NCBI RefSeq assembly: GCF_947623445.1
Contig: NC_135242.1
Coordinates: forward strand, 9,920,001 to 9,984,000
Origin: Clavelina lepadiformis
Lineage: Eukaryota; Chordata; Ascidiacea; Aplousobranchia; Clavelinidae
DNA: 64,000 bases
Direction: 5' to 3'
Positions within the stretch are counted from its first letter, which is position 1. Every line of letters starts with the position of its first letter. A program made the translations under genes and the position numbers. Of the stretch, positions 3,869 through 54,147 are shown piece by piece. The notes under the pieces were generated by a model, which saw nothing but the letters and a program-made list of their open reading frames with translations, searched no databases and was not told the DNA's origin.

Positions 3869-5947
3869 TTATTGAGCTTTTTTCTCTGTATCTGCGGTAT
3901 TATCTTTGGCATCCGGTTGCTCAATACTTTTCTCGTCTGAATATCTAAGAAAACAATAATTTTCATCCAATTTAACAATGATGCTCCACATAAAATAACT
4001 AGATAGCATTTATATACAGTACGTCACTAATTTTACATATGCAAAACTTAAGACAAACTCAGCAAAGTGAATGAAGTCATAACGATTTCTGCATATTTAA
4101 TTGGAAAACATATTATACCAAGAGAAAACAATGTTTTAACAGGATGAGATTGATTTTAATATCTATGGACTACAGTATTTAGACGTTCGCAATATCCATT
4201 AAGCTTTAGATTTAATTACTTGAACATGCACTGCAAATCTCCATTTATAAAAGCTACGCCAAGTGGAGCACCAAGACAAGCCGGAACTAAATACAGCAGA
4301 GCTGGTTGTGGATGCTTGAATACAACCATCACGACTATTGTTGTTACAAGACCAATGAAGTAGGCAATAAGTCCAGTGTAAAAATAAGTTTTCCTGTCTC
4401 GTTGCAAACTATTAAACACATAACAGTTTTATATACTGTTACATAAATTCTTTCAACATATAATAACCTACTTTAATACAAGTACTATTTCTTACCTTCT
4501 ATCAAATCGTAACAACAGAGCAATGAAAATCCCTGCAATGAATAAGATTACTTGACACTTAATATGAAAACTTAAATATTGCTCGATCACAGCATTGTGA
4601 CAGTAAAGTGATAATTTACAGCTGAAAATATATTAAGAAAACAAGCCAGCAATAACACACCTGGAATGACAATGTCTCCAAGACCAAGCATTGAAAAGTT
4701 AGTTCCAAATATACCATTTACCAAAAAATCTTGTGGAAAAACAACTTGAAACAAAAAAAATCTTAATGTAATACTGTATTGAAATATCGTACTGTTTATT
4801 TACAGCATATGACAATCCTGAAAACGACTTGTACTGTACTTGAGTGTACTGTACTGAACTTGTACTGTACTTACCTTTTATTGGAGCATTAAAATTCTTT
4901 GCCACAGTAATCATTACGTTGGTGCCAAATACCCAAAAAACATCATAAAAAAACAAACCTGAAACACAACAACCACATAAGCTTTGATACAGAATAAACT
5001 TACAAATCAAACTATACATTATTAAAAGTATATGTCTATAACATTAAAACTGAACTTTCGACGCTATTTTAATACACTCTATTTTCAATGGAACAAATGT
5101 GGAGACCCCCCCCTGGTTTAAACAAAACTTAATAATAAACTGTGAAAAAAAATAGAGACAACCTCATGCATTGCATGTCATTTACATCCAAACATTTCAA
5201 TACTATAAAAGAAAAATTGTAAAATTACCTAAATTATTTATGCACATGCTTACCTATGAGTAAAATGCATCCAGTGCTTATGCTGTTTAAACGAAGTAAT
5301 TCAACACCATTGGTTGCAAATGCCAAACCTATTATGTTGTTTGCTATCCAATGCTGAGTGCAAAACAAAATAGGGCAATCAAAAATGGGATTGGTGGTGA
5401 TCAGAAATTTGTATTCTTAAAAAGTTGTGAAAAATCTTATGCTATAAACACCTACATATTACTAAAGCATCTTCTTCCACTTGCAATGAAATATTGTTTT
5501 AGTCTATATATACTTACTCTTTGCAGAGCATACCATCCGGATAAGACGGTGCACAAGCCAAATGCTACAACATCCTTTCTGTCAAATTCCAAATCCAATA
5601 TCACTAAAAACAGTTGCATAAATATCAAGGTATTGTTAAGTTGTATTCTCCAGAAACTGCTAATAATACAGTACTTCCTCGATTATCCGGTCAAGTTGGG
5701 TCAATATTTTCAAAAATCTGACCGGATAAGCAAAAAAAACGGATAATTGAATTTGTATTTTCGCCACGTAAATCGCCGCCATGGGCCTGACACCCGCTAT
5801 GGGACGAAGCCTCGATCAGAAGGACACGGGCGATCCGCGACGCGCGCAAGACGAATTCTATACGCCACAATTCCGGAGCGCTCCAAAAGGGACCGGATTC
5901 GGCGATGGGCTCATCCCGCTTCACTCGCCGTTACTAAGGGAATCCTC

Positions 5948-5994
<47 letters not shown>

Positions 5995-6621
5995 AGTCTC
6001 GTCCGACCTCAGGCCGAAATGTAAGAGACGTCACACGTGCCGAGGATCGACGACGTTCGCGATCGATTGCGGCGACTTGGCGAAACGAGGACACCTCTTC
6101 GAGGTCAATCCGCCGCCGCCGCGCTCTCCGATCGCGTGCCGGACCCTTGCTGACTTCGACGGGACGGCGGAGACACAGGTCTCCGTCCGACTCCGCATTC
6201 GCCCGGGCGACGAGCGCGCCGGGATTGCTTTTCAGACGACCCTGAGGCGGGCGTGGTCCCGGGATTAACCCGAGGCCGCAATTCGCGTTCAAAACGTCGA
6301 TGCTCAATGTGTCCTGCAATTCACACTAATTCACGCAGCTAGCTGCGTCCTTCATCGACTCGCGAGCCGAGTGATCCACCGCCAAGAGCCATCATCGTTT
6401 ATCGTTTCAGCTTGTACGAAGCAGTCACAGGTTTGAATGTGAGCGCCGAGCGGACGATGTGACGACCGTCACTTGAAACCGCGGGGGTACTCGACGCCCG
6501 TGAAAGACTTGTGCCTTGTCCAGCGCCTCAACGGGCGCGTCTTGACCTCGACAAGCGCGAGAGGCGGCCGGTTTCCTGGCGACGCCGCCGCAGATCGAGC
6601 GGGAGCCTCCGTTCGTTTCGA

Positions 6622-6660
<39 letters not shown>

Positions 6661-9600
6661 CCGACTTTTACTTCCTCTAAATGATCAAGTTAGATCGTCT
6701 TTTCGGACACCGGTTCGGCCGTTGCCAGCCGCTCCGGGTCCAATCGGAGGACCTCACTAAACCATTCAATCGGTAGTAGCTACGGCGGCGGTTCAACGTC
6801 AATTGAAAAATAAAAACCTGAGTAATCTCACGCATATGATAGTTGCAAGTGCAATCATGCGAAGTAAAACGACCTCCCAAAGTCATTGATCACTCGGCCG
6901 GATAATCGAATGCCGGTTAAACGAGGTACGGATAATCGAGGAAGTACTGTATCTCCAATGTTTGTTTATTGCCAGGACTACAAAAATTTTCAAGCTAACT
7001 TGTGCTTTGTCATCGTATGTAATGTTATCCAAACAATTTATCATCTCATAGGTGTCAAATTTAATAATAACATTGGACTAAAAAATCGTAAAATCCTTTT
7101 TATCTTAGCCACTATTAAAGCACAATGTTGATGATCATGTCACACTGTATTCTATATACAATTAATCTGAATAGATATCAAAATCTTAGTAATTAAGCAT
7201 AAAGCTGTTATTGTGAATCTGTATATATACTTAACATTACAATCGCAATTAAAACAATAAACAAATACATATTCAACTTTATACTCCACGTACAAATAAC
7301 ACTGAAATATGATGGTTCAATTCCACAAAAACTTCCAAACGTTTTTAGTCCATAAGCAGTTTATCAACGCTGCTTGTTATAACAACGAAAAAAAATACAG
7401 CGAGAAAGTCAAAGGCAGAGAATGTAGAAATCTACCTATACATTTGGTAACTAGGGAAGAATAAACCAAATATTTGCATGTTATACCTTCTTTTTCTTCT
7501 TTACTTCCTTCTGTGAGAACCAAATGACAAGCCTTATTAGGAAAAAAGCTTGGAATCATTTTAGTAATATATGGACTGAAAAAAAAAGTATTGATGAAAG
7601 TCTTGCGTAGCTGATTGCATAAGCAAACACAACATTATACACACAATATATCATATATAACGTTAATTATATAAAAAAATAATTCCAAAAACATGTCAGA
7701 AGAAAGTGTCCATTGCTGCTGCTCTTTGATAAAAAAAAGATAAATCAAATCTATTGCCCTTATGATGCATTTTCGAAAATCGACTACATTTATTTGTTAT
7801 AATGTGTAACTTATTTTATTTTATTTATAATTAATTATTGTCATTGCATTTAAAGTTTTAATATTCAATTTTTCTCGCTGGACAAGCTAGAGCTCTGCAA
7901 AAATTACGAAAAATTCATAACAGCAAATAACAAAAATTGGGTTACTCACCAGTGGTCACTTTTATGTGTGACCGAGTATGTAGTGATCACAAGTTTTTTT
8001 TAGAACTTTTTCAACTGTGTTCAATTGAAATAAAATTGTTTACTAATGTGCAAGTTGTAATTAGTAACGTTTAGCAATGTTGCCAATTGCCATGTGAGTT
8101 TATAAAAATGCTAAATTTTACCTCGTTTAAACTTATCACCTAATGCGAAGTAGGTCATGTAGCCCCCAAGACATGTTGTTGGTGGAGCAAATGGTTACAA
8201 AAGGACTTGACTTAAATCAAATGAAATTAAATAGAAATAAATTGAAAAAAAGTATATTAACAGAAAACATTCATGAACTTTAAGACGCTCACATTTATTA
8301 AGTTAAAATTTTTTAATTTTGGGTTGCCGTATCATCCTTGTTTTGAAGGTCTGTGTCTTAGAAAATATTTTTGTCTTTATTTCCACGAAATGTCCTTATT
8401 TTTGTCTTATTTTTTGGGGCAAAAGTTACTATTTCGGGCATTTCGACACCTTTAGTATACCATTTTGTACCAAAGATATACCAAAATTGAGAACATGCAA
8501 ATAGTATCTGTTCATTTTTGGAACATTGATTGCCTTCTCCTGTTGTGCACTGCTTAAGGTAGTATTCTTCTTTTGTTTCCTGTTTGTCCTTATTTTCGAG
8601 TCCAAACCGAAGGCAACTCTGCCTATATGGTAGTATAGTATAAAATGCTTCTTTGCTACATATGCAGACATGTTTAACTATGCCATCTTGAACACATTTG
8701 GTGACATTTATAATAGTGGCACCGGCAGTGTTTTTCATATTTGTAAAAGCTAGTAGGTCACATTTTTCCTGTGGTTTTTATAGTTTTGGATAATTTTAGT
8801 TTTATTTTCTAAATGACCGTATCAAAGAGGAAAACATCAAAGTCATCAATTGCATGTTCTACAGATGTTAGATGAGCTTACCTGGCAATTTGGTTGACTG
8901 CAAAAATTCCTAACACAAAAAAGTAGAATCCAATGAGTATAGTAATATATTCTTGAGAGAATATCTGCAAACAATTGTCTTGCCTCAGTGAGAGTTACAA
9001 AAAGGTGGTACAACATATCGCATACTATTGCCTCACAAACATTTTCCATAACAAAATATTAATCTAATTCTAATCCATTAAACTAACATAACAAGACAAG
9101 ATACCTTGAAAAACATGTAAATGCCAAACAAAACTCCACTAGCCACCAAAGGAAATTTGAGAGCATCATGTTTGGTAATAGTTTCTGGTGTTTCACCAGA
9201 TTCCTGCAATAATACAATAGATTGAAATCGATACAGCAACATCAAAATTGCTCATACAAAATTAATTAAAAAACACTGCTAATGTATGTTGCAAGGCAAA
9301 CTGCCCAAGTCATTTTAGTGGCAGTTTGGAACAAATAAACGTTTAATAGCCTGGTTTAGACAAAGAGATCATCCCATGTTTGGTCTTCTTCACTCATGTA
9401 TAAAGACACAAAACATCAGTTATTATTAATTATTACTATACAGTATTAATTAATTATTATCTGTGATAACAACATTACGAGTAATCGAGTATTAATGGCC
9501 AGGATACAATGCTCAGGAAGCTTACAACACAGTCGGCTTACATACTGTCTGAAGCTTATATACTGCCCAAAACGTCATTGTAAAAATCACAGCAGCTAAG

Positions 9601-20232: not shown

Positions 20233-22517
20233 CTAGCAACATGGACGACAAATTGTCTTGGAATATCCCGAGCAAACTTGTTTCTTGGACATATAGCAAA
20301 CCAAACTAGTCTTGTCCTTTTTTCTGTCACAAAGGCTACAGCGCTGTCGTTTCAGCTTTGGAGGATTGTCAAAATCATCTTTGTTTCTTCCTTTTTGTCC
20401 TGATGCAGAAAAATTTTCTGAACCCAGACAATCGCAGAAACTGAAACCCTTCGAGAGGGGTCAGGTTGGGTGTTCACGCCAGCGAGCTCTATACCCAGCT
20501 CTAGAACAAAATTTTGTCTCTTCTTCACACTGATGCTTGGGCTTTCACCATTCAACTCCAACCATACAATAAAGGCATTTACAGCACTGACGTCGATCAT
20601 ATTGTAGAAGAGTGCAACAAGCCATCTTCTTGTCATCCTCTTGCAGGTGTACTTTCTCACCATCCGGTCCAAGGTATCGACACCTCCTTTGGTGGAGTTA
20701 TAGTACTGTATAACTTCCGGCTTTCTGTCTGAAGAACTTGCATCAACATCTGGCTGGGAATGCATAGTTGACAGCATCGCCACAACACAGTTCTTCTTGG
20801 GGCAATACGAAGCTCTCATGGCATCATCTTGAAACCCAAATAATGTTGATTTGGTCTCCCTACCTTTTGCCACTGTGAATTGAGGCAGAAGTTCTGGTTT
20901 GTTTCTTCTTAGTGTTCCAACGATGGTTAGTTTTTTTGTCCAAAAGTGTTCATGCCAGTGAAAGACTGGTAAAAAAGTTGTCGCACGTAATATTTCGTCC
21001 AGATTTTTCAATCTCCTTTGTCATGTCGAGAACAATTCTTGTGCCTTGATTGACTTTTCGGGGAGCGTTATCATTTTTTCTCAAGTATACTTGCATTTTC
21101 CAAGTACAGTCGAAATCGGTTAATCGCATATCGGTTAATCGCATGCATCGGTTAATCGCATAGCATTGCATAATCCCAAACCATTCCCATTCACTTGTGA
21201 AGAAAATTCAACGGTTAATCGCATAAGGGTTAATCGTATAAATCGGTTAATCAAATAGGAATTCTTGATTGATTTGTAGACTTGTATCACTTAACCACAT
21301 ATTTCCTTTGATGAAGTGTTAAGTTGCTGAAGATTATCCTCACCAATAAACAAAAATCGAAAAAAGGCCTTCTCTACAGTGATTATGAACCACAAAACTA
21401 CGTTTCATTTAAGGATTGTTACGGATCGTTACATCACAATAGAACAACAAGACTAATTTTTATTTAAGGATTGTTACGTCGCAAAGCGCAAACCACGTGT
21501 CGAAATCGAAAAGAAGGAAGCTCACTTGTTGCGTCATAATGCATTGTGTCATTCCAAAAATCGGCGGAGGAGCAAGAATGCGTGCGCCGGTGTTTAAAAA
21601 AGAGAATAGCGGAGAAAATGTAGGAAATGCATACATCGGTTAATCGCATAAAAAAGCTTGGCAAATTGACTATGCGATTAACCGATTTCGACTGTATAAT
21701 ATGTATTCGAATCACAGATTGTCCAAATTTTGATACTGTATTTACCTGGTTTAGAGGTTGTATACTGCCGGAATGGGCATCGGCCTCTGAATCTTAGGAG
21801 CTGCTCATCGTCATACAAGCCCCAGGGATATGCGCATCTCGTAAGTATGAATCCCAAGTGTCAAAAACTTCTCTGATTGGTTGAAGTTTGTTCGAAGATC
21901 TATTTCTTTTTCTTTTTTTTTGCATCATCAAACCTAAGAACTATCAGTATTTGCTGAAACCTTCCACGACTCATGATTTGGTTGAAAATTGGTCTGTCAT
22001 CATCTTTACTCCAAAGTTAGGTTGTATTTTCATTTCCTGATTTATAAACTCCAATAAGTATTACCACGCCAATAAAACTCTTGAACTCTTTAGCTTCCAC
22101 ATGTTTCCATTACCTGTTTTACACAACTTCTCCTTCTGCATTGGTCCATTTACAAATTGTTTCTATGAGTGGTTGACGTAAAAACAGTATAAATGAGTCC
22201 ACAACGGAACCACGTTGCCTGTTTGCAAACCGTGATGGGCCTGGTGTTGCATGGATGATATCGCGAGCAGGAGCTCTGCCACCTGAAGGACTGGAAGACC
22301 AGCATACGGATTTGTTTCGAGAGAGAAAAGAACTTGTGGCAGCTGTTAACGAAACATCTTCACTATCACTTTTGACTGAAGTATTTGAGGAAGCATAGTC
22401 GCTGATGTGAGCAACCTCTCCATCATCAGAAGACAAATATTCATCATCAGTCGACTCCAGATCCTCTTCGTCTAGCAAACGCTCAACATCCCCTACGGTT
22501 AACCATCTCCTCTCCAT
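20233..22517 (-). pseudogene. piggyBac transposase, decayed
   Basis: Catalysed cut-and-paste at TTAA when active. The reverse strand gives, in order: an acidic N-terminus with GDVERLLDEEDLESTDDEY; FKSFIGVVILIGVYKS; RFRGRCPFRQY in another frame; NQGTRIVLDM and NITCDNFFTS; HEHFWTKKLTIVGTLRRNKP; a KGGVDTLDRMV motif with the conserved aspartate region; and a C-terminal Cys-rich finger starting CSLCDRKKDKTSLVCY and ending in CRPCC. In-frame stops near 22119 and 22000, frameshifts near 21800 and 20350, and the MITE at 21107-21694 show it is dead. The family call is secure from the motif order. Confidence 0.87.
21107..21694. mobile_element. Pogo-like MITE nested in piggyBac
   Basis: 588 bp between TA dinucleotides (21105-21106 and 21695-21696), with perfect inverted repeats of about 24 bp whose first 20 are CAGTCGAAATCGGTTAATCG. 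The GGTTAATCG motif is repeated about eight times, clustered at both ends. It splits the transposase just before a YTWKMQVY motif. No ORF of its own. Confidence 0.88.
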
Positions 22518-24005: not shown

Positions 24006-27000
24006 GCATTTTAAAGCAGCATTTTGTACTGAGCTTGGAAAGCCATTGTCTTTAGGATTGAAGGAGTCAAGTGAATTATGTTCTGGAGAGGTAAGATCAT
24101 TAATTGTAGACAGTGTTATTTATTATTTCATTGTTCTCGCTGTGCATAACAGTACTAACTGTAGCCTACACTTGACATAAGGACGTATCCAAGGGGTGAG
24201 TTTTAGGGTATGGACCCTTTTCTTTTTTCGACTGTGTCAATGCGCACATCTTAATTGTGCCATGTTTTAGATTTATCAGCAATCGAAGACGTTCCATAAA
24301 GCTGAATATAATCAACGTAATGTATGACTGGCATTGTGTTCAGCAATGCTGCTTTTTTTTCTTGTCATTGATGCAGTATCGCAAGTTCTTGTCCCTCACT
24401 TTTTTGCAGAACACGTCCACAGATAATGTGCAAAATGTCTACAACTTTTGACGCAGCTTCAAGTAATTACTGCTGTGCATTAATGTAATTAAATAAACAA
24501 TTGTGTAACTGTGTTAGGTTTTGAAAACCTTGTTGTAACGCAGAAGAGTGTTTTAAGTCTCTAAATACATTAGGTTGCTTGTAAAACAACGAGATAACTT
24601 ATGGAAGTTGTTGTAACTTTAATGGCAAGACGATAACACGAGATAACTCGTGGTTTAGCGGTTTGGGCAAGAATTCTAACCATGAGTTATCTCGTAGTTG
24701 GCAGTTAACATGTTAACAACAACATTTGATGAAATGTGAAGTTTATGCACAAAAGTTGTACGTAAATGCTAAAACGCAAGTAGCAAGAGTCGTTGTATTG
24801 CTATCTTTTTCGCTAGTTCGTATTTAATCTGTATTACAGCCAAGTTGCTGATAAACCTTTACAAACAATAACTATTGATGTATTGCTTTTGTTTTTTCTG
24901 GTTTTTATGCGTGCAACTAATTTTTTGTTATAATGTCATTTTTGCAAATTCTAGGACAACCCCTCTCCCTTTAAAATTTTTAAATATACCCTGAGTCCAC
25001 ATTTGGTAGAACTCAGATAAGTTGACCACGTGTGGGACCATGGTAAAGTAGTTGTATTAGCAAGAAGGTCACGTTATTGATTTTCGCAATAAAGTGTAAT
25101 GTCACAATTGTACACAAGACCATGTGGGCTATTTTTAACAGAGGGTGTTTTTGTAATCTTGTTGCGTTTAAGACATGCGAAAGTAGGCGTTTTACGCAAC
25201 ACATGATTAGAACTCTGATAAATGTACGCAACTGTTGAAATTTTATACACAGCTTGTTTCATATCTTTTACACTTTTCAAAATCATTTAAAAAGTGTTTG
25301 AAAATATAAAATTGTTATTACAATTTTATTTGCAGTAAGTGTATGCCATGCGTTAATCTGGGTGCCCGGACACATGCAAACAATTGCTAACATGCAGTCC
25401 TAGGTGATGACGGCATAGCTGCAATTGATTAGTTATAATTTACCAATCACAAGTTAAAAGTCAGCTAAGTTTTACACAATATTGTTGTGTGGGTTCACTT
25501 AATTGTTTCACACCAACTTTACTGTGGTTGTGTTCTGAATACCAGAGTGGTGCATTGGCGAAATGGAATGCTATATACATTATTATAACAAGATATTCAA
25601 AAGGTTGTCATGACGACATGGTTTTTTCCTGTTTCTGCTGTATTTAAAATCTTTAAACCTTTAGCTCTGATGGAAAAACAAAACTGTGTTTTTCTTGACA
25701 AATATTTGTCTAAAATGAGCTATTAATTTTTTCCATGTTTCACCAAGATTTTGTGTAATCACATGTTTAAATGCTTTCAACCTTTATCTAATGTTTTGGT
25801 TTTTAATTTTCTCAAAGGTGAGAATTCAAGTCGCAGCTGTTGGCATCAATTTTTCAGATCTTCTTATGGTGAAAGGTGAATATCAGGTGAAGTTATCGCC
25901 TCCATTTACACCTGGAGGTGAAATGTCAGGTAAAGTTTGTTATTGTTGTAAGAGCGTGGCTCTATTAGGTTTTTCAGTGGCTGTTATACAAATATTATCA
26001 GTTTTAAGAAGGCAACACCCCAATTGTGAGAAAGGTCACATCTATACATAGACACCTTAAATAGAAGGACTGGTATCCTCTATGCTCGGTATCTGGAACT
26101 TGGGTCCCATCATAATTTGTGTCAAATACATGGTAAATCCTTCATTCTGGTGTCTCTTGGGGTGTTTTGAAGGGTGAGGAATTACTTTTTCATACTTTTA
26201 ACCTTCTACAAGGTCATCTGAAGGTCATTTAAAGGTCAAATCACATAAAAATAGCGCAAAATCACTCAAAATATTGCATATTTTCTCACTTAAACAACTG
26301 AAACACACAGTATGTTCCCCTGTGACTGAATTAAAATCTATACATGGACAGTTTAGCCTGGATAGTTCAACAGAAACATGTATGCATGTATGCTGTGTAT
26401 GTGATCTTGGTAAGACGGATGCTGTTTTTCCGGTCTTCATTGTACAGTGCTTCTATGTCCTTTCATCGTGCTATATATGTGTTTCCATCTTTTGTGAAAG
26501 AAAGTTCCTTATCATGCACCGTTATCCAGTTATTTCTTATATTTTTAAAAGAATGAACGTAGTCAAAAACAAGGAAAGCATAAGAATTTATAGCGTCAAT
26601 GAAGACTTTACCAGGGCCATGTAATTTACCATAAACTGCAACATTTGTATTGCAATTATCACCTACACAAGAAATTATACTACCACCAGCATTGTTTACC
26701 GCTACTAGAGCTTCCAGTAGAATTTTCTTGAGTTCATCTGAATTAAGTTTTGCAACAGGGTAAATGCGTAGTATATATCTAGGGCCACCAAAATGGCAGA
26801 CAACTTCAATCACCAAAGCATGTGTTGCAAGAACTTCGGTATCACCAGAACCATTTTGCGCATAACCCACAACACGACCACCTGAGTACCTAAGTGTTTC
26901 TGTGAGCTTCACTTCATCAAAAAGAATGTTGACGAGACACTGCTGAGGTTGAAGCTTTTGGAAAAGTTGCTCTAAGTTTTCATCATGGAGACTACAGGAG

Positions 27001-30000
27001 AGTAGTTTTTTCAACAGTTCCACTCTCGGTAAAACAATTGAACCGGACTTTCGTATCATTTTATATGCAGCTGGAGAAATGTTATGAAGGTTGGCAGCAA
27101 GAATATAAAGATTTTTGTCAAAATGTCGACCTTCAGGAGGAGTGAGCAGTAACTGTAACTGAGCATAAATAAACTGGAAATGAGGCGAATCAGAACAACT
27201 CATGCTATTCAATTTCTCTACAGCACTTTTTAGATAGTCTGTATCTTTGAACTCATACTCTGTTATGCATGACAGAATTTTATCTAACTGTGACCATTTA
27301 CTGAGAAGGCTATTCTTTTGCAGACAACCAGCTTTGGAAAAATATGTTTTAGGTATGTCCTTTCCATTTTTCTCAGCACATTTAAGATGCAAAAATCCAA
27401 ATGACGACTGCACGCGTTGAAAATGAAGAAATTGGATAACAGAACGTCCTTTTGCATCAGTTTTAGAAATGTAAATATCATAACCATCACAAAAAAAAGA
27501 TGATCCTTTGAGAAATGCTGCTTGATGTCATTACAAAAGGAAGAAAAGTCAGCTATCTTATCCAGACCTTCAGTACGGAATCGTTCCTTTTCAGCTCTGG
27601 CCTCTGCTGAAGCAGTTGTAGTTCTGGGTGCTGAGGAGACCTGCTTTAAGCATGACTTTAAAACTCCAGGGAAAATGGACGGTGGTTGGCTTGGTCTTTT
27701 TCCACCTTTAACTGAAATCCATTCACAGTCAAAATGATTAGCACAAGCATAGATCTGCTTAAGCTGTAGCAAACTAGAACGCTCATTTGGCATGGCATCA
27801 ATCAAGCGGTTTCGTTCTACTTCATCAGTTGGAAATGATACCACTTTGGAGTACGGTTTCTCCCTGTAATTGCCTCGACAACCACAGACATTAGATTTCT
27901 TAGGCATTGTGTGTTATTAACAGAGACCCCTGAAATGGAATGTGTTATTAACAGAGACCCCTGAAAAAAATTTGTTCCGATTATGCAATAGAACTAAATC
28001 TAGAGATTTAGTTCTATTGGATTGTGGTCATTATTTAGTCATGTCGTATTGAGCTCGACTTTGATAATGATCAGTTGATCACTTAGGTAAATCGAGAACT
28101 AAAAAGTATATATAATTATAGCCAAAATTAAGTGATAAGCTCGAATCGAAAGAACAGATGAAATTATAATACTTAATCATTTATTTATTTACTTTCACCC
28201 ATATAAATGAGGTTCTAATTAGTATAGTTAATTATGCATTGTAGAAGTCAGAGTTTAACCCTCCCTGTGTCACGTAACCATTCGTTAACAGCATAATGCA
28301 AGTAGTCTGTCCATGTTATTGGCGACGTTCATATGAGATAATAACATAAAATATTGGGACCATATCTATTTAAGGTGTCTATGATTGGGACCCAAGTTTC
28401 GTAACCCGAGAGTGGGAGTTACTAGTCCTTCTATTTAAGGTGTCTATGCATCTATATGTTACTGCACATAAAGAAGGAGTAGCTCCGGTCAATTGTGCAT
28501 TTTATTTTTTTTTGTGATGGTTTTTGGTTGTTATAGCATTTGCTTAGTGCTGACCCAGGCTGAAGTTGACATTTTGTGTTGGTTTAAAGTTAAAGCTTTT
28601 TAAATGTTATGTCAGAAAATTGTAAGAAAAAGTTTAAGCGTTTCGTGTGGAAGATCCAGAGGTGAGACTTTGCTCAAAATACTGTGGTAGATTCTCTTAT
28701 CCTTCATCTTGCTGGATACCAAAACTCAGATACTTGATAACTTACTCAGCTTCTTTATTAGTAATTATGCAATTTGAAATATTTTACCTTGCGTTGTTAA
28801 ACATAGGGCTTTTGATAGTATACCAGTTTCTCCATTGAATTTTTGACACGTGGGCCGTAGCGGTACGCTGAAGTTGCAATTCATTTTGAGTTTTTAGGCT
28901 ATTTCCTGATCTTTTGCTTGTACAATGCAAATGCATATATAAACAATTGAAAAAATTCAATATGGATCTGTTTAAATCGCAGTTGATGCTACTTCCACAT
29001 CAAGTTCGTAAAATCTCTGGTTTATTTAGGTTTTGACTTTGGTAACCACTGAGAAGTTTTAAGAGATTGTGACTTTTAAAGACTAACTGCTAATTTTTTG
29101 CTGTACTGTAGGTGCAGAAATATATATTTTAAGAGACATTTTTATAATTTAAGAGACCATTTCAGTCCCCAAAAACACTGGTTGTTTTTGTCTGTGCTTC
29201 CTTTAATAATGGCATAGTGTTAATACAAAACTGCATTATGTAGTACTTTACAGCTACTGTATATACCGGCATATAGGTCCCCTCCCAGTTTTTAGATACT
29301 GTGAACTACACAACGCAAACTAGATAACCGTGTGTCAAATAACGAATCATCACAACCGGTCTTATTTCGTATGTCTTTTTAACACAGTTGTATATCTTCA
29401 TGCTGCCCAGTCGTTTAAGTATGATAGTCCTGTACATGTCACATTCTTCCATTACTGCAATACGTTGCACTGTATTCGCCTTTTTTTCTTAAAAACGAAA
29501 TGACAATACAGCACCCTGTTGCCAACACGAGCAGCTGAAACGTTTTGTCTGGTGAAAGACTTAACCGCATTCCCGTCCAGGCATTGTTACTTCAAGTGTA
29601 AAATTCCTTAATTTTGCTGTTTAAAGATGATCACGTGTGGCGTGGATATCGCACGAACGGAATGATACATAAATTTTTGGTTGTGCATATAAGCCCTTTC
29701 TCGTTTTTTTAGCCCAAGATTTTTTGTACAAAAAAGGGGGGCTTATACGTGATATGAACGGTAGTTGGATTTTTAGTTAACCCGTTTTAGTTATTACAAC
29801 ATTTCTTTAGCACAGTATGGCAATCTTGAATAATAAGCTTTGTTGTCACATTGTACCTGATTGTACCGGTTAAATGACTCGCGTTGATACCTGCTCACTT
29901 TAAATCACTTGTTTAACTTCTTAGATGGCTTGGCTAGTAACTTGCTTTTGCATTTCACGCCGCTTTATCTAAAAGACTATAGGGGTGCAGAAGTGCGAAG

Positions 30001-37667: not shown

Positions 37668-40600
37668 TCAAGCTTCTGTAGTTTTGTGAATAAACCAATC
37701 AACGCTGTGAGACTCATCTTCGAACTTCACATCAACTCCATTTTCAACCAGAAGTCTTTTAAGTTCTTTTATTTCTGAATTATAGTAATAAATACAAAAG
37801 AAAAGTAAATAGGCAGGGAAAAACAAAGCAGTAATCGGCCAACAATCCATTACCTAGAACTTTATATTCCTATATTACCGATTAGCAATTGATACAGTAT
37901 GATACAAGCTTGTAAGTCAACTTTACTATACTTGAATTTCAGAGTGACTTAACAGGTCCTAAAAATACGGCAATATATATTAGTATAAATTATACCAATT
38001 GCTTAAATTAATCATTGAATTTCTCAAAGTAATATAAGGGTTAGTTTAGCATTAAGTTAACAAGCTTTCACTTGTTTTCTAATTTCTGAAAAACTCTTCT
38101 GATTGCCACACTTAACTATTGATCACACATTATTTTGAGTTATTAAACACTGAACATCAAACAAAGCATTCCTAAAGTATTTGATTTTTGGTTTAACATT
38201 TTTATTGTGATTGCATTCTAAGGAGCAAAAAGAAATAATATAATTACAACTCAGTTTTTTCTACCCTGGGCGTTTTGAAGTTTTTTGGGGGGCGCTGTGT
38301 ATATTGTACTTTAACGTTTGTTAACTAGTTTTGTTGGAATACAAGTTAATGCATTAATATAAATAACCCACACTATGCAGTACCTTATCAAGTTGGCTCA
38401 AAAAAAAACAACAGATGAATATTACTAAAGAATAAAATTATCATGAGTGTTGTCCATACTTTTGCTGTGAGATTCTTAGCACAATGATGTTGCCTTATAG
38501 TTTTACTTTAGGTCAAACAATAAAAGATAACACTTTCTGGTTAAAAAATAATCATGTTTTAGTTTAACTTTGCTAAACATTTGCTACGCTGTTGGACCCA
38601 AAATTTTAAATTCCATGTAATACTGTGGATCAGCATTAGGATATATACTATTGCTTCTTATTACCTTAAACACGTTTTAAAACGGCGCAATGAGCTATAC
38701 ACAATAGTGCAGACTATCCAGTATCCACGTCAAACATGGAGGCGACTTAAACACAGGCCAGTAACAAAGTGAGTCCCATCAAGGCTTGGTACCACTTAGA
38801 AATAACTTGCCTGATGAAAAATTTCATGCGGCATAGGTTGAAAGTAGGGTTGGATTATCCGGATAACGGTTAACCGGTTAACCGATTAAAGTTTGAACAT
38901 TCTTTGTTACGTAGAGGCTGACTCCCGCTGAGCGCAATTAAACCTTTTTTCACACTTCTATTGTCTTATACTTTCAACTACGATACTCGTAAAATGCACG
39001 AGTGAAATTTACTATCACGTCACAAAGAAAGCATAATGAATGATTCTTTTAATAGAAGACTGCATTCTTATGGCAAGGTAAAGTCTGTGAAGTGTCAGTT
39101 GAAAAGCTTTGACTACAACCTAGTTTGAAGTTAATTGATTGAATTGAGTTGTTAATTGTTAATTAATTAATTGAGTTAATTGAAGTTAAATTTAAGAGAT
39201 GGAATTTAAACGTTTCAAAAGTGATAATCCAGTTTGGGGCTACTTTCTACGATCAAGAAATGGTGAGAGGGCAATATGTGAAACCTGTGAAAACACGATT
39301 TCTTGTAAAGGTGGATCTATAGGAGCAATGAGAAACCACCTTGGTTTAAAACATAAGATTGTTCTTGACACAAAGAAAGCAAAACAGCAAGTTTCTTTGG
39401 AAAACACAAACAAATGTTCCGCAGGTACTAGCACGATTGAAAACTATTTTAAGCCAACCAAAGAGTCGCTGGAGAGGGTTGTTGCAGAGCTAGCAGCTGT
39501 GGACAGAATTTCTTTCAACACCATAGCTACTAGTAAGCAACTGAGACGAGCATTTTTAGCAAGAGGATACAAGCTACCACAAACGGTGCAAAATGTCAGA
39601 AGTATTATCATGACATTTTTCCAAACACTGAAAAGCGATACAAAGGAAATGATTGAAATAAAAAAGAGACTGGAAAATTCTGTTCTGTCACTCTTGATGA
39701 ATATACGAGCACAAGAAGCAGAAGATACATGAACTTTAACCTGCACTATGATTCAGACCCCGTTAATTTAGGAATGGTAAGAATCAAAGGTTCTCTTCCA
39801 GCTGAAAGAGTAGCGAATTTGGTGGAAGAAAGATTGCAGGAGTTTGGCATCAAGATGGAAGACATTGTTGCAGCTACGACAGATGGAGCTAGTGTGATGA
39901 AGAGTTTTGGAAGAATGATTTGGTGTGTAACTTGTGTCCACCAGCTCTGTTTTGCGCATGGTTATCATTTAGCAGTAACTGACTTCTTGTATGCAAGGCA
40001 AAATCTCTTTGAAAGATTAGAGAATGAAAGGGAAAATAGTAATACTGGATCGGATTCAGAATTTTCTTCAGAAGAGGAGATGGAAGAAGCTGATGAAGCT
40101 GCTGTAGATCTTGTAGAGACTGAAACAACCGGTGTAGAACTTCAACGGTTTGTTGGGGAAGTGATAAGGAAGGTAAGAACAGCGGTGAAGATGTTTCGCA
40201 AAAGTCCTCTTAAGAACGAAATTCTGCAAAAGCATATCCAAGCACAATTGAATACAGAGCTGAAGTTAATTCTAGATTCAAAGACCAGATGGAACAGTCT
40301 TTTAGAGATGATTAAAACATTTGTAAGAGCAGAAAAATGTATCAGAATGGCTCTTGTTGAGATTGGAACTTCTATCACCATTACGGACGCAGAAATTAAA
40401 ATTCTCCATGATCTGATTGATGTCCTTGAACCAGTTAAACATGCTGTAGATGGACTTTGCAGAAGGGACGCTACACTTCTAACCGCTGAGCGGATTCACG
40501 AATTTGTGCTTAAAACTCTTTCTAATTCTAATTCTGCGTACTCGGCATCTCTTAAGTCTCATCTTGAGGTAAGAATCAAGGAAAGGAGAAATGCATGTCT

Positions 40601-43600
40601 TGTTCATCTAGTTGAATATTTGCATGATCCCAATTTTCTGATGGAGAACAAGCTTGATACATTTGGCGAATACGGAAACAGAAACAAGATGTATGCTCTT
40701 GCAGCAACCCTAATGCAAAAATTGATTGCAGCAGCAAAGCCTGGTCCTGGAGAAGACAGCCAGTTGATATCACTCGCTTCTACCACGGTATGTAGAGGAT
40801 CATCACGTGAATCTCTCAAGGAGGAATTAGAGCAAGCTATCATGTCGGCATCAATTCCAGTATCAGCTACTCGTCCTTCCAGTACTCCAAGTCCAAACCT
40901 AAACAGAAGAATGGTCCAAAAGGAATGTGAAGTCTTTGAAGCTTCTGGGAAACGACCTGCCAACCTTCAGACTCTCTATGAAGCGCTGCTTACTATTCAG
41001 CCCACTTCTGTGGAAGCAGAAAGAGCATTCAGTGCATGTGGACTCTTTGTTACAAAACTCCGGTCCCGTCTACAGGATTCCACAATTGATGCATTGTGTT
41101 TTATAAGGAGGGCGTTGCAGAAGCAGTGAACATTAAATTTGCGTGGTTTTTCTCGTATTCGCTCGTACTGCGCGTGTACGTAGATCTACAATAAAACTGT
41201 GTAATGATTTTACAATCCATTTTTCATGCAAACCTCGTGAAATCGATTGTCTCACTTAGCAGTTATTATCCGGTCAACCGGTTAGATAAATTCCAAATAT
41301 ACGGATATATCCGTTATCCGGATAGTAAAAATTATTGATATCCGAACTAACCCTAGTTGAAAGTAATGTAATGGTTGCTCATTTTTTTTCAGAAGTTGTG
41401 TTTTTATCTTCTTTGAGCCTACAGATACTTAAAAACTTAGTGCTATTATATTGTAAAGATGAGCAAGTCGCCTAACTGTGAAAGATGCCATCACAAACAA
41501 TCATTATCAAATGTTGTCAAGCTGCATTTATTTGTTGCCGTGAGAGCTTGCATTTATGTCATAATTTAATTGTTGTTTCACAAATATTGGACATTGTAAA
41601 AGATTCTTCTTATTGGAGGACGCAAAAACTTCCTTTGCTAAAGTTGGAAAAGCACCAAAAAACTTTGCATTTCTACCAGCAATATGATTAAAAGGTTGGA
41701 ACCACTGCGCTAACCCAAATATATCATGGTTAGTTTTATCACAAAAACCTTTTCTTGGTGCAGTCCCATTTCATTGCAAACATGTTGCTATATTATGACG
41801 ACATGAAAAGTATCGTCACATTTTCCCGTCCCATGTAGTAAGGGGAGGCAGTGTTTCCAAAAAGTTCAGAAGGGATAGGTTAAGACCCACCTTTTAACTG
41901 AATATAAACAGATAATAATAATTATAAAATCAAAAAAAGATATTTATTACGCCTTTTGATTAATTATGGTGGCTAATAACAAGAATCACAGTGTTGAGGA
42001 CTTGAGGTTGAAGATTTTTTTCAAAACTGGTTCAATTATTTACTTGAAACAGCATATGAGTTCCTGTTGATTTTCATTGTGTCACACTCACTGTAGTGCT
42101 TGCATAGATTAACCATGTACGGAAATTTTGGAAAAATAATAATTTGTCTTTGAACTTATATAATTACACGAAAACTTATTTCTGGCACATGCAGTTAAAT
42201 GATAAGTCCTAAAGGAGTATAGATTATAGTTTTAAAAGAAGCAACAACAATTACAAAAAAGAAGATAAAGTCCATTTAGTTTATAACATGTGCCAATGAT
42301 TTGGATTAGGTAGACAATGGTATGGTATCACCCTATTAACGGCCGGATAGTTTCTGTCAAAAACTGCATAGCACATTTTTGAAAACTTTGGGGAATATTC
42401 CTGAAAGAACAGACTGTGCTATACACGTTTTGGAAAAATCACAATATTTGAGACAAAAAGGATGAACATAATCGAGCAAGACAAATAGCAACAAAACTTA
42501 TATTCTTGCAATTTAAATCCATGACAAATACTTTCTTACCATTAATTTGTGATTGCAATTTCTCCTGAGCCTTCTTTAATATCTCTTCTAAAGCTCTGTT
42601 TTTGGCCTTGATTTCATGAACTCTATTGTCAGCCTCACTTTTAATTGTAAATATCACTCCTGAATTTAAATTGTACATCAAGGTAAGCTGTAATACACAT
42701 TGTACTAATATATATATATCAGTGAAAGTCAATATAAACACAAATTTTCAAAAAAAATATCCTAATGATCTTAAAATTGAATTAAAGAGTTACCATCAAA
42801 AACGAAACATAAATATTTCAAAATCAAATAACTTACATGTGCGGCATTGTTAATAATATAATTGTTTCATATTACCCAAAGAATGTTTTCATCATAATAC
42901 ATAACAAAATCTTTAAAATTCATGATCATACCATTAAATATTCGAAGCACTCTCCACAACCGCAGAATAACTAATAATCCAATTGCTGCCAAAATACTTT
43001 CTTCATCAAAGGCTAAAGCAAGATCAGCTCCAAAAGACACAACAACTACAATCGCATCAATTACTTCCACCTTGTGATGAATAAAATGCTTGTAATCTGC
43101 ATAGATCTAAGAATATGAAAGATTTTTATGTTATCGGAGCAACAAGTCACCACAGCAAAAATTAATTCTACCTATCAGTTGCCTCATAGCACTTATTGTG
43201 TAAAAATGAAAAATGCATCAAAACATCTGCTGATATGTTGTGAGGCACATTAACGTTAATTTTGCAGTAATTCACAGCAAAATTGCAGCTATGTAAAAAA
43301 CAAAACTGGTGCACAAAACCAGCTGAAACAGTTACCCAAGATCATTATGCCTTGAACATAGGCGTTTAATAGACATATAGATTAAATGTAGAGTTAATTG
43401 CCAAAATATACACCGATTAGAATAATTTTTTGAAAATGTATTTCGCAAGTGTTTAACGTGATTAGTATATCCATATGTGAGTGAATGTTTACCGTGATTA
43501 GTATAGCCCTATGAGGCTATGATAGAAGAAATAAATCAATTGCATAGGTGGACATACAAAGAACATAGTGAAACAGGATAACAAACAACTAAATAAACAG

Positions 43601-51733: not shown

Positions 51734-52137
51734 AATTAGCATTGTTGAATTAGACATGCATTTTCCCGGTCTAGACGAGTTGTTTGATCAGATTATGAAA
51801 CAATGCGTTCTATCTGATGTAGTAACAATGGACTCATTGTTGTAACAATGGACACTTTAGTTAAGTAAATTGTCAGATTGAAGCTGTACGTCAGGGCTGA
51901 CCTAGTTTTAAGTCTTGGTTATGGTTATACTAATAATTGTAAATTGCAAAAAGAGTTGGAGAAGCCCAGCAGGTGGAGACTGGAGAGTGAGACAGCAGAT
52001 GAGCAGAATCAGCAGATTGTACAGACAGGATTACAGGAATCAAGTGATCTTGTTTTGATCAAGTCAAGTGATCTTGAATGCGATACTTTTATCATTAAAT
52101 TACAATAATTCTGGTTGTTGACAAGTTGACAACGGTA

Positions 52138-54147
52138 ATGCCCAAAGAGGTGAGATCCAAAAATTCTAGGTTTCGATCGCAAAGCTACAGAAAAGAATGG
52201 GAAAAGGAAAACTGGGCACAAGGATGGTTAAAAGTTTCGTCTCAGGGAGCATCAAAAGCATTTTGTCAATTTTGTGACAAGAACATTCTTGCTAGGAAAT
52301 CAGAACTAATGAGGCATGCAAAAACTGCTCAACATTGTCAAAATGCTGCACAAGTTCTTGGAAGCACATCGATGGAGCAATACGTCACAAGTAGTCAAGG
52401 CTGCATCAAAGCTGAATTAAATACTGTGGCCTTAATTGCAAGACGCAATATTTCTTTCAATTTCATGTCATACATGGTACCAACCCTGAAGCATATTGCT
52501 AGTGATTCCAAAGCAATAAAAGATATGACCTCTGGTCGGACAAAAACAACATATCTACTAACAGAATGTATAGCTGTTGATGCTCATGAAAGGTTAATTC
52601 AAGAGCTACAAGAAGCTAAAGGCTTTTCAATTCTCTGTGATAAAGCATCAGATATATCAATGAATAAAATCTTTTGTATAAACGTCCGCTACTTATACAA
52701 TGGATCACCAAGAACACAGTTATACCAACTCATTAGGCTAAAAAGGGGAAACGCAGAAGCTCTATTTGCTGCCTTGGAAGAAGCATTGGTTAAAGACAAA
52801 CTCACATGGCAACAAGTGGTTGGATATGCTTCAGATGGAGAAAATTTGATGCAAGGTGGTAGTAATTCATTTTTAACACGGATGTTAGAAAAGATTCCTG
52901 ATATTTTTGTATTGAAGTGTTATTGCCACAGCATCCATCTAGTGGCAAATCATGCTTGCAAAAAGCTTTCAAAAACAGCTGAACAACTTGTGCAAGACAT
53001 CTATAATTATTTTAAAAATTCATCCAGCAGACAGGAGTCATTGAAAGAATTTCAACATTTTTGCAAAACGGAACCACACAAGATGTTGAAAATGTGTCAA
53101 ACCCGGTGGCTTTCTTTACAAATGTGCACCTCAAGGATAGTAGAACAATGGAAACCACTGCAATTGTTTTTTACTGCAGAGGTATTTGAGGATCAATCAG
53201 CAACTGCTGAAAGAGTGCTCAATGGTCTAAAAGCACCTTATCTGAGGGCCACTTTTGAATTCATGAACTTTGTTTTAGATGAACTCACTGGGTTGAATCG
53301 TCTGTTTCAATCCAATGAATTCCAGCTGCACAATCTTTATCCCGAAGTGGTCCATGTGATGAAAATGTTTGCTTTAAACTTTATGAAGCGATCTTATATC
53401 AAAGATAGTCATATCCACCATCTTAATGTTGACGACAGCTCCCGCTGGCTTTCTATCCAAGAGGTTTATCCAGGCTTGATGGCAAGTGACACAATCAAAG
53501 AATTGCTACCTCATCAGAAAGAAAGTTTCTTGGAAAGATGTAGGGAATGGTATAGGGAGGCAGTGAAGCAATTATATCGAAGGATCAATTTAGATGACCC
53601 TGTACTCCAATCTCTTTCGCATTTGAAACCATCTGCTATTGTTAACGAAACTTCTTCAATCACTGCTGCAGCCACGATTGCTAGTGGACTTCCTTGCATT
53701 ACAACTATGCTCAATGTTAATGCACAGCAGATTGACCGACAATGGAGATCACTTTTAGCAGATGAAAATATCATCTCTGGACAATGGAAAGGCAAGCCAT
53801 TTGAAAATTTTTGGCTTGCTATGAGCAAAATTGATTCTTATAGAACTCTGGCAACATTTGTGCTGCAGGTAGCTGCTCTTCCACAGAGTACTGCAGTGGT
53901 GGAAAGAACATTCTCCAAGCTGAACTTAAACAAAACCAAACTGCGAAACAATCTTGGTGTAAATACTCTTGAGGCAATTATAAAAGTGAGTGAGAAATTT
54001 TCTGATAATTTTGACGTCACACCAAGACTAGCTCGGCTGCATGCAAATGCTAGACAATCATATATGAATAAATATTCTGCTGATGATCGTGTTGCTGCGG
54101 AAGAGGTGGAATTTATGGACAATGATGATTTTCCTTTTTGTTTTTGA
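52138..54147 (+). CDS. hAT-family transposase, uninterrupted, 669 aa
   Basis: Starts at the first ATG, 52138. Order seen: basic N-terminus with YRKEWEKENWAQGWLK; a BED/TTF-like finger FCQFCDKNI with HAKTAQH about 15 residues on; KGFSILCDKASDISMN (first catalytic Asp block); GYASDGENLM (second); LKCYCHSIHLVANHACKKL; KMCQTRWLSL; and the C-terminal dimerisation segment with LPQSTAVVERTFSKLNLNKT. The tail is acidic and aromatic. No stop or frameshift over 2 kb in a region where every other transposase is broken means this copy is young, or the gene is under selection (domesticated). The ends and duplication around it favour a young element. Confidence 0.9.
   Translation: MPKEVRSKNSRFRSQSYRKEWEKENWAQGWLKVSSQGASKAFCQFCDKNILARKSELMRHAKTAQHCQNAAQVLGSTSMEQYVTSSQGCIKAELNTVALIARRNISFNFMSYMVPTLKHIASDSKAIKDMTSGRTKTTYLLTECIAVDAHERLIQELQEAKGFSILCDKASDISMNKIFCINVRYLYNGSPRTQLYQLIRLKRGNAEALFAALEEALVKDKLTWQQVVGYASDGENLMQGGSNSFLTRMLEKIPDIFVLKCYCHSIHLVANHACKKLSKTAEQLVQDIYNYFKNSSSRQESLKEFQHFCKTEPHKMLKMCQTRWLSLQMCTSRIVEQWKPLQLFFTAEVFEDQSATAERVLNGLKAPYLRATFEFMNFVLDELTGLNRLFQSNEFQLHNLYPEVVHVMKMFALNFMKRSYIKDSHIHHLNVDDSSRWLSIQEVYPGLMASDTIKELLPHQKESFLERCREWYREAVKQLYRRINLDDPVLQSLSHLKPSAIVNETSSITAAATIASGLPCITTMLNVNAQQIDRQWRSLLADENIISGQWKGKPFENFWLAMSKIDSYRTLATFVLQVAALPQSTAVVERTFSKLNLNKTKLRNNLGVNTLEAIIKVSEKFSDNFDVTPRLARLHANARQSYMNKYSADDRVAAEEVEFMDNDDFPFCF

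Follow-up and report, generated by a model that had tools for sequence, protein, structure and literature searches.

A non-autonomous Tigger-type transposon family carrying a slice of the ribosomal RNA unit in the ascidian Clavelina lepadiformis

The window analysed here is a 64,000-nucleotide stretch of the Clavelina lepadiformis genome (contig NC_135242.1, positions 9,920,001 to 9,984,000, forward strand), and the element under study occupies its positions 5669 to 6949. An earlier note, made from the letters of the window, had described this element as a TA-flanked DNA transposon of pogo/mariner type with perfect inverted repeats, non-ribosomal arms on both sides and a contiguous piece of ribosomal DNA (rDNA) including a whole 5.8S gene. 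The inverted repeats were recovered as described: positions 5666-5689 and 6929-6952 are 100% complementary over 24 nt, which comprise a 21-bp terminal inverted repeat (TIR), the TA and one additional base. Likewise, the 5.8S gene is complete, with Rfam model RF00002 matching 6237-6390 on the reverse strand at 123.3 bits over its entire length (1-154 of 154). The Rfam large subunit (LSU) match lies on the same strand as 5.8S at 5647-5993 and extends at its low end beyond the element, so that the 28S breakpoint is not fixed by it. GC content reaches 0.61 within the element and is 0.28-0.34 in its surroundings. The claim of transposon arms on both sides held for the left side; on the right, the non-rDNA stretch consists of a 19-bp filler (6781-6799), a 72-bp piece of a dispersed repeat here called X (6800-6871) and only 78 bp (6872-6949) that represent a Tigger arm. 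The features are as follows, with L numbers denoting loci collected from the genome and C numbers contigs of the assembly.

5667-5668, no strand: left TA target-site duplication, read from the sequence
5669-5689, forward: left TIR of 21 bp; the same 21 bp end three 2.45-kb Tigger copies
5669-5761, forward: Tigger left arm, the downstream side of the parent transposase gene; 100% identical over 93 bp to L069 and L070, 98.9% to L071
5762-6005, both bounds approximate, reverse: 5' end of the 28S rRNA gene, from the Rfam LSU match
6006-6236, 28S bound approximate, reverse: internal transcribed spacer 2 (ITS2), between the 5.8S and 28S matches
6237-6390, reverse: complete 5.8S rRNA gene, from RF00002
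6391-6621, reverse: ITS1, located between 5.8S and 18S
6622-6780, reverse: 3' end of the 18S rRNA gene, its last ~159 nt, matched by alignment as far as GGTAGTAGC with the end of 18S in host unit L030
6781-6799, no strand: 19-bp filler at the 18S junction, not found whole in L030, L098, L036 (host 18S), L084 or L070
6800-6871, forward: end piece of dispersed repeat X, common to Tigger copies L082-L084
6872-6949, forward: Tigger right arm, the upstream side of the parent transposase gene; the consensus equals the L070 element over 78 bp
6929-6949, reverse: right TIR of 21 bp, complementary to the left TIR
6950-6951, no strand: right TA target-site duplication, read from the sequence

When the element was searched against its own genome (209,060,895 bases in 95 contigs), 20 matches spanned practically all of the 1,281 bp with 96-100% identity, spread over C1-C7 and C9 and thus over eight of the nine large contigs, with partial matches besides; this search scored the best 40 of 194 candidates, and a search with the rDNA core scored all 33 of its 33. 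In total at least 24 elements, hereafter carriers, run from TIR to TIR. Of these, 20 are of near full length (1,264-1,298 bp), three have lost internal sequence and one contains a 529-bp insertion; all counts are lower bounds, as N stretches interrupt the assembly. Multiple copies alike in arms, rDNA core and TA flanks had been predicted, and TA indeed lies on both sides of 22 of the 24, as is required of non-autonomous Tigger/pogo elements; the two exceptions, L014 and L025, are altered at an end. In 18 of the 24, neither TIR has a mismatch. Genome-wide, TIR ends occur 58 + 58 times at one mismatch or fewer, compared to 0 + 0 for a reversed-pattern control. The consensus of the copies reads Tigger 1-96, ~1,024 bp of rDNA ending in 18S, the 19-bp filler, 72 bp of X and 78 bp of Tigger. 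The window copy departs from it at 18 of 1281 bases, and since this copy has itself diverged, the left junction is clearer in the consensus.

Some carriers are of interest for their structure. L031 (C7:8676433) and L032 (C3:8927489) share a deletion in the 28S part, lie at different sites and are the carriers furthest from the consensus (2.1 and 2.6%), likely representing a deletion derivative that spread by itself. Two further carriers without a left end, L034 (C1:3414224) and L035 (C1:3175154), lie with their flanks in opposite orientation ~240 kb apart and show 8 mismatches in 3,264 bp; they are either an inverted duplication or an assembly duplicate. In L029 (C1:2641515-2643344), the 529-bp insertion in the 18S part has inverted ends starting with CAGTGGTTCCCAACC and an 8-bp duplication, and we take it to be hAT-like.

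The carrier flanks are unrelated except for eight rows of cross-locus matches, the longest being 1,016 bp at 92% between L017 and L023. The repeat underlying this match reveals an empty site for L023: an uninterrupted copy in the L017 flank is identical in 387 of 399 columns and holds a single TA. The comparison paired 24 joined carrier sites with the collected loci. For L015, an inverted relative at 81% spans the insertion site. The matches found for L011 were discarded as an artefact, since they ran into the end of the element itself.

The left arm of the carriers also begins longer elements, three of which, of ~2.45 kb, were examined. L070 measures 2,446 bp and its transposase frame of 552 amino acids is open, and in L069 and L071 the frame is broken into two. 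The L070 protein matches the Pfam families DDE_1 (E=1.2e-43, full-length profile), HTH_Tnp_Tc5 (3.2e-15) and CENP-B_N (4.4e-9) as well as a CENP-B chain in the PDB (E 2.4e-8). It has 515 homologues at E 0.001; among the 120 listed there is no close relative with a name, the top one is 80% identical and four bear jerky- or tigger-like names. As no base separates the carriers' consensus from L070 in its first 96 and last 78 bp, the proposed pogo/mariner affiliation is borne out by arms held in common with a Tigger/pogo relative whose transposase frame is open. Judged by the sequence of its ends, its target site and this partner, the window element is a non-autonomous Tigger derivative. With Tigger/pogo elements (Tc1/mariner, IS630-Tc1-mariner group) it shares the TA site, the 21-bp TIR and a parent with CENP-B_N, HTH_Tnp_Tc5 and DDE_1; it differs in its interior, which consists of host rDNA and a repeat end, not of a deleted transposase gene.

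The host reference was one rDNA unit on C7 (L030, C7:2650310) that is readable across the ITS. Alignment of the core with host rDNA, which the earlier note had suggested, gives near-identity to this unit, with differences that are family-wide: the consensus deviates by 9 substitutions in 776 positions and one 3-bp deletion. No difference falls in 5.8S (0 of 154), three lie in the 231 columns of ITS2, one substitution in 18S, and five substitutions plus the deletion in ITS1. Seven of the nine differences are present in all 20 near-full copies and two in 19 of 20, and the deletion is in 20 of 20, which argues for one capture followed by amplification. The cargo was thus likely captured once, from this lineage's own rDNA. 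By eye, L030 seems to join later 28S directly to the ITS2 boundary, the 28S 5' stretch being apparently missing, so that this unit is either a variant or an assembly fault.

The 20 near-full copies lie 0.23-1.49% from the consensus, with a mean of 1.5% between copies, and L010 departs from it at 3 of 1289 bases, which suggests a fairly recent spread. A tree built from 21 copies has little depth, and support is good for 2 of its 18 inner branches. Within the family, 5.8S has diverged by 0.75%, ITS1 by 0.77% and ITS2 by 0.74%, rates that count copies and not independent changes. Decay of 5.8S at the rate of the spacers speaks against selection on the rRNA, and the cargo appears to be a neutral passenger.

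Sister copies of the parent bear on the route of capture. X comes from the end of a repeat found at dispersed places; besides L082-L084, at least 37 places match this repeat at 82-88% (best 40 of 82 candidates scored). L082-L084 are X-containing Tigger copies in which the transposase gene is partly retained (in L084, Tigger 1-1571); ~290 bp of the X repeat replaces the upstream part in L083 and L084. The last 151 bp of L083 match the carriers' consensus without a difference; an X-bearing Tigger lineage therefore looks like the right-hand parent, and the rDNA would have been acquired second. Other copies have lost their interior as well. In L077 (C2:13650657-13651732) a LINE-like stretch of 640 bp, matching C6:13021395-13022034 at 99%, takes its place, and L073 (C4:10396474-10396839), a shorter relative, also has a LINE-like piece in place of the Tigger interior. 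Assignment of the L077 insert to R2 was rejected, as a PDB search returned R2 at E=0.76 and nothing exceeded the Pfam cut-off; only the designation LINE-like was kept. L074/L040 hold 351 bp of a high-copy repeat (best 40 of 500 candidates scored), and L072, L076, L078 and L092 carry internal deletions with little or no added DNA. Interior loss combined with foreign DNA in sister copies points to abortive gap repair with ectopic templates.

In the route we infer, excision of an X-bearing Tigger copy would have broken the DNA, repair templated by the sister copy would have aborted, and synthesis would have switched to the rDNA array, which may be an easy ectopic template because it is highly repeated. 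End joining would then have left the 19-bp filler. Since the carriers have no transposase gene, mobilisation would have occurred in trans, the transposase of a full-length relative cutting and pasting them to many sites. Altogether, we assign a probability of roughly 0.8 to the reading that the carriers are non-autonomous Tigger/pogo elements whose interior was replaced by an rDNA slice, likely once, and which were likely spread by the transposase of a relative.

Several points weigh against this reading. A clean empty site was obtained for just one of the 24 joined sites (L023, compared among the collected loci), and neither transposition nor excision of the carriers was observed. Divergence is uneven along the element, with 0.38% in 18S and 0.27% in the left arm against 1.35% in 28S and 1.28% in the right arm, and neutral decay hence does not fully explain the slower 18S piece. 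Only the single unit L030 represents the host across the ITS, the adjoining host stretches reading N, and as the host 28S 5' region is unreadable, the left breakpoint can be placed from the Tigger side only. Moreover, L074/L040 and L082-L084 could owe their inserts to nested insertion with later deletion and not to gap-repair capture. For the 19-bp filler no convincing template was found; it shares no more than 9-mers with host rDNA, a length that chance could produce on a rough estimate.

Among the alternatives, mobilisation of neighbouring insertions stands up best, and we nevertheless regard it as unlikely. This route has been proposed for plant Pack-TYPE elements and heads a section of PMC8903248. 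A right end from the X-bearing lineage, as indicated by L083, fits it, and so does a consensus left arm with no difference from L070 and one to three from L082-L084. These differences may, however, be private mutations of L082-L084; moreover, no inner TIR or second TA is seen in the carriers, and the route requires two additional deletions.

Retention of the rRNA cargo for a function, for instance docking or promoter activity near the nucleolus or small RNAs against rRNA, is considerably less probable. It would agree with the carriers being the commonest single structure among the Tigger copies looked at, which are not a full census, with the rRNA sense strand and the parent transposase gene pointing in the same direction, and with the slower 18S piece. 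However, 5.8S decays like the spacers, and L031/L032, which are without part of 28S, also occupy two sites. The rDNA promoter lies in the external transcribed spacer (ETS) or intergenic spacer (IGS), and the slice, ending in 18S and 28S, contains neither.

We give very little credence to copies having arisen by segmental duplication or ectopic rDNA spread, with the TIRs being incidental. Ectopic spread is a known propensity of rDNA, L034/L035 are duplicated with their flanks, and L017 and L023 share flanking sequence. For the family overall this explanation is refuted by exact ends with TA and by the scarcity of flank matches; the L017/L023 repeat itself exposes the empty site. Insertion of a Tigger element into a scattered rDNA fragment with misassembly of the two, or absence of rDNA from all other copies, the case in which the earlier note would have been wrong, can be dismissed, since even granting that rDNA is difficult to assemble, the same arms and identical junctions recur in the 20 near-full-length copies, at 20 places on eight contigs.

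Returning to the reading of an rDNA slice captured by a Tigger element, the carriers resemble some known systems in part. Helitrons are without TIRs and target-site duplications; the carriers have TIRs and a TA duplication and are not Helitrons. SINEs (short interspersed elements) derived from 28S exist, and such rRNA-derived SINEs, like the carriers, disperse rRNA sequence by a mobile element; they are retroposed from RNA, whereas the carriers are cut-and-paste DNA elements with both spacers. The nearest precedent found for rDNA inside a DNA transposon is Pokey of Daphnia, which we take to be piggyBac-type. According to PMC4912750, it is a DNA transposon with repeats derived from the rDNA IGS and/or ITS, and to this extent both systems hold rDNA-spacer-derived sequence in a DNA transposon. 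Pokey differs in its TTAA target, its specific rDNA target site and the position of its repeats at the 5' end; the carriers lie at dispersed TA sites and contain 18S-ITS1-5.8S-ITS2-28S in one uninterrupted slice that includes an entire gene. Pokey qualifies the claim that such a capture is not a standard observation. A literature search of partial coverage turned up no DNA transposon holding an unbroken stretch from 18S to 28S, which does not show its absence from print.

Pack-TYPE elements of plants, among them Pack-Mariner, are DNA transposons with TIRs that carry captured host coding DNA (PMC8903248). Pack-Mariner has in common with the carriers TA sites, TIRs and captured host DNA in several copies, but there the cargo is plant coding DNA and here a slice of the rRNA transcription unit in a Tigger-type element of an animal. 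The carriers work like Pack-TYPE elements, yet are not classed with them because their rDNA cargo is non-coding.

Most of 18S is also present in a second transposon family, unrelated to the first. At the dispersed loci L036, L037 and L038, 18S runs ~35 nt into ITS1 (35 in L036) and is followed by other DNA, L037 and L038 being ~98% identical to L036. The 18S model is covered from 129 to 1831 in L036 and from 125 to 1831 in L037, both cut by the locus end, and from 538 to 1831 in L038. L037 and L038 sit within elements with ~380-bp inverted repeats at ~90% identity and ends consistent with TA sites; for L036 the right element end only was read. The end motifs of this family (L036, C3:10155207-10162156; L037, C6:17127425-17131322; L038, C1:3053710-3056587) occur 15 times in the genome and differ from the Tigger ends. 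We offer tentatively, and with somewhat less than even confidence, the proposal that the rDNA array is a favoured ectopic repair template, that two unrelated transposon families captured rDNA and now disperse rRNA genes as cargo over the chromosomes, and that DNA transposons are a recurrent route of rDNA out of the nucleolus organiser.

Little is known of how rDNA passes from one chromosome to another, and transposons are long-standing suspects. In this genome a carrier, a partner with an open frame, a host unit, a likely X-bearing intermediate and an empty site are all readable, which makes capture and spread traceable step by step. An 18S site of the ITS-primer type is present in 20 of the 24 carriers and a 28S site in 21; with such sites around decaying ITS sequence in most copies, false ITS variants in barcodes are plausible, and the carriers could add them. 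They may also draw transposon-directed small-RNA silencing onto rRNA sequence.

Elsewhere in the window, eight frames were scanned for domains, three of them without a match. The remainder include transposase-like frames, with a DDE_Tnp_1_7 match at 20352-21020, a TNP-like RNase H match beside a THAP match below cut-off at 26463-27913, a Dimer_Tnp_hAT match at 39657-41129 and a hAT match below cut-off at 52099-54147.

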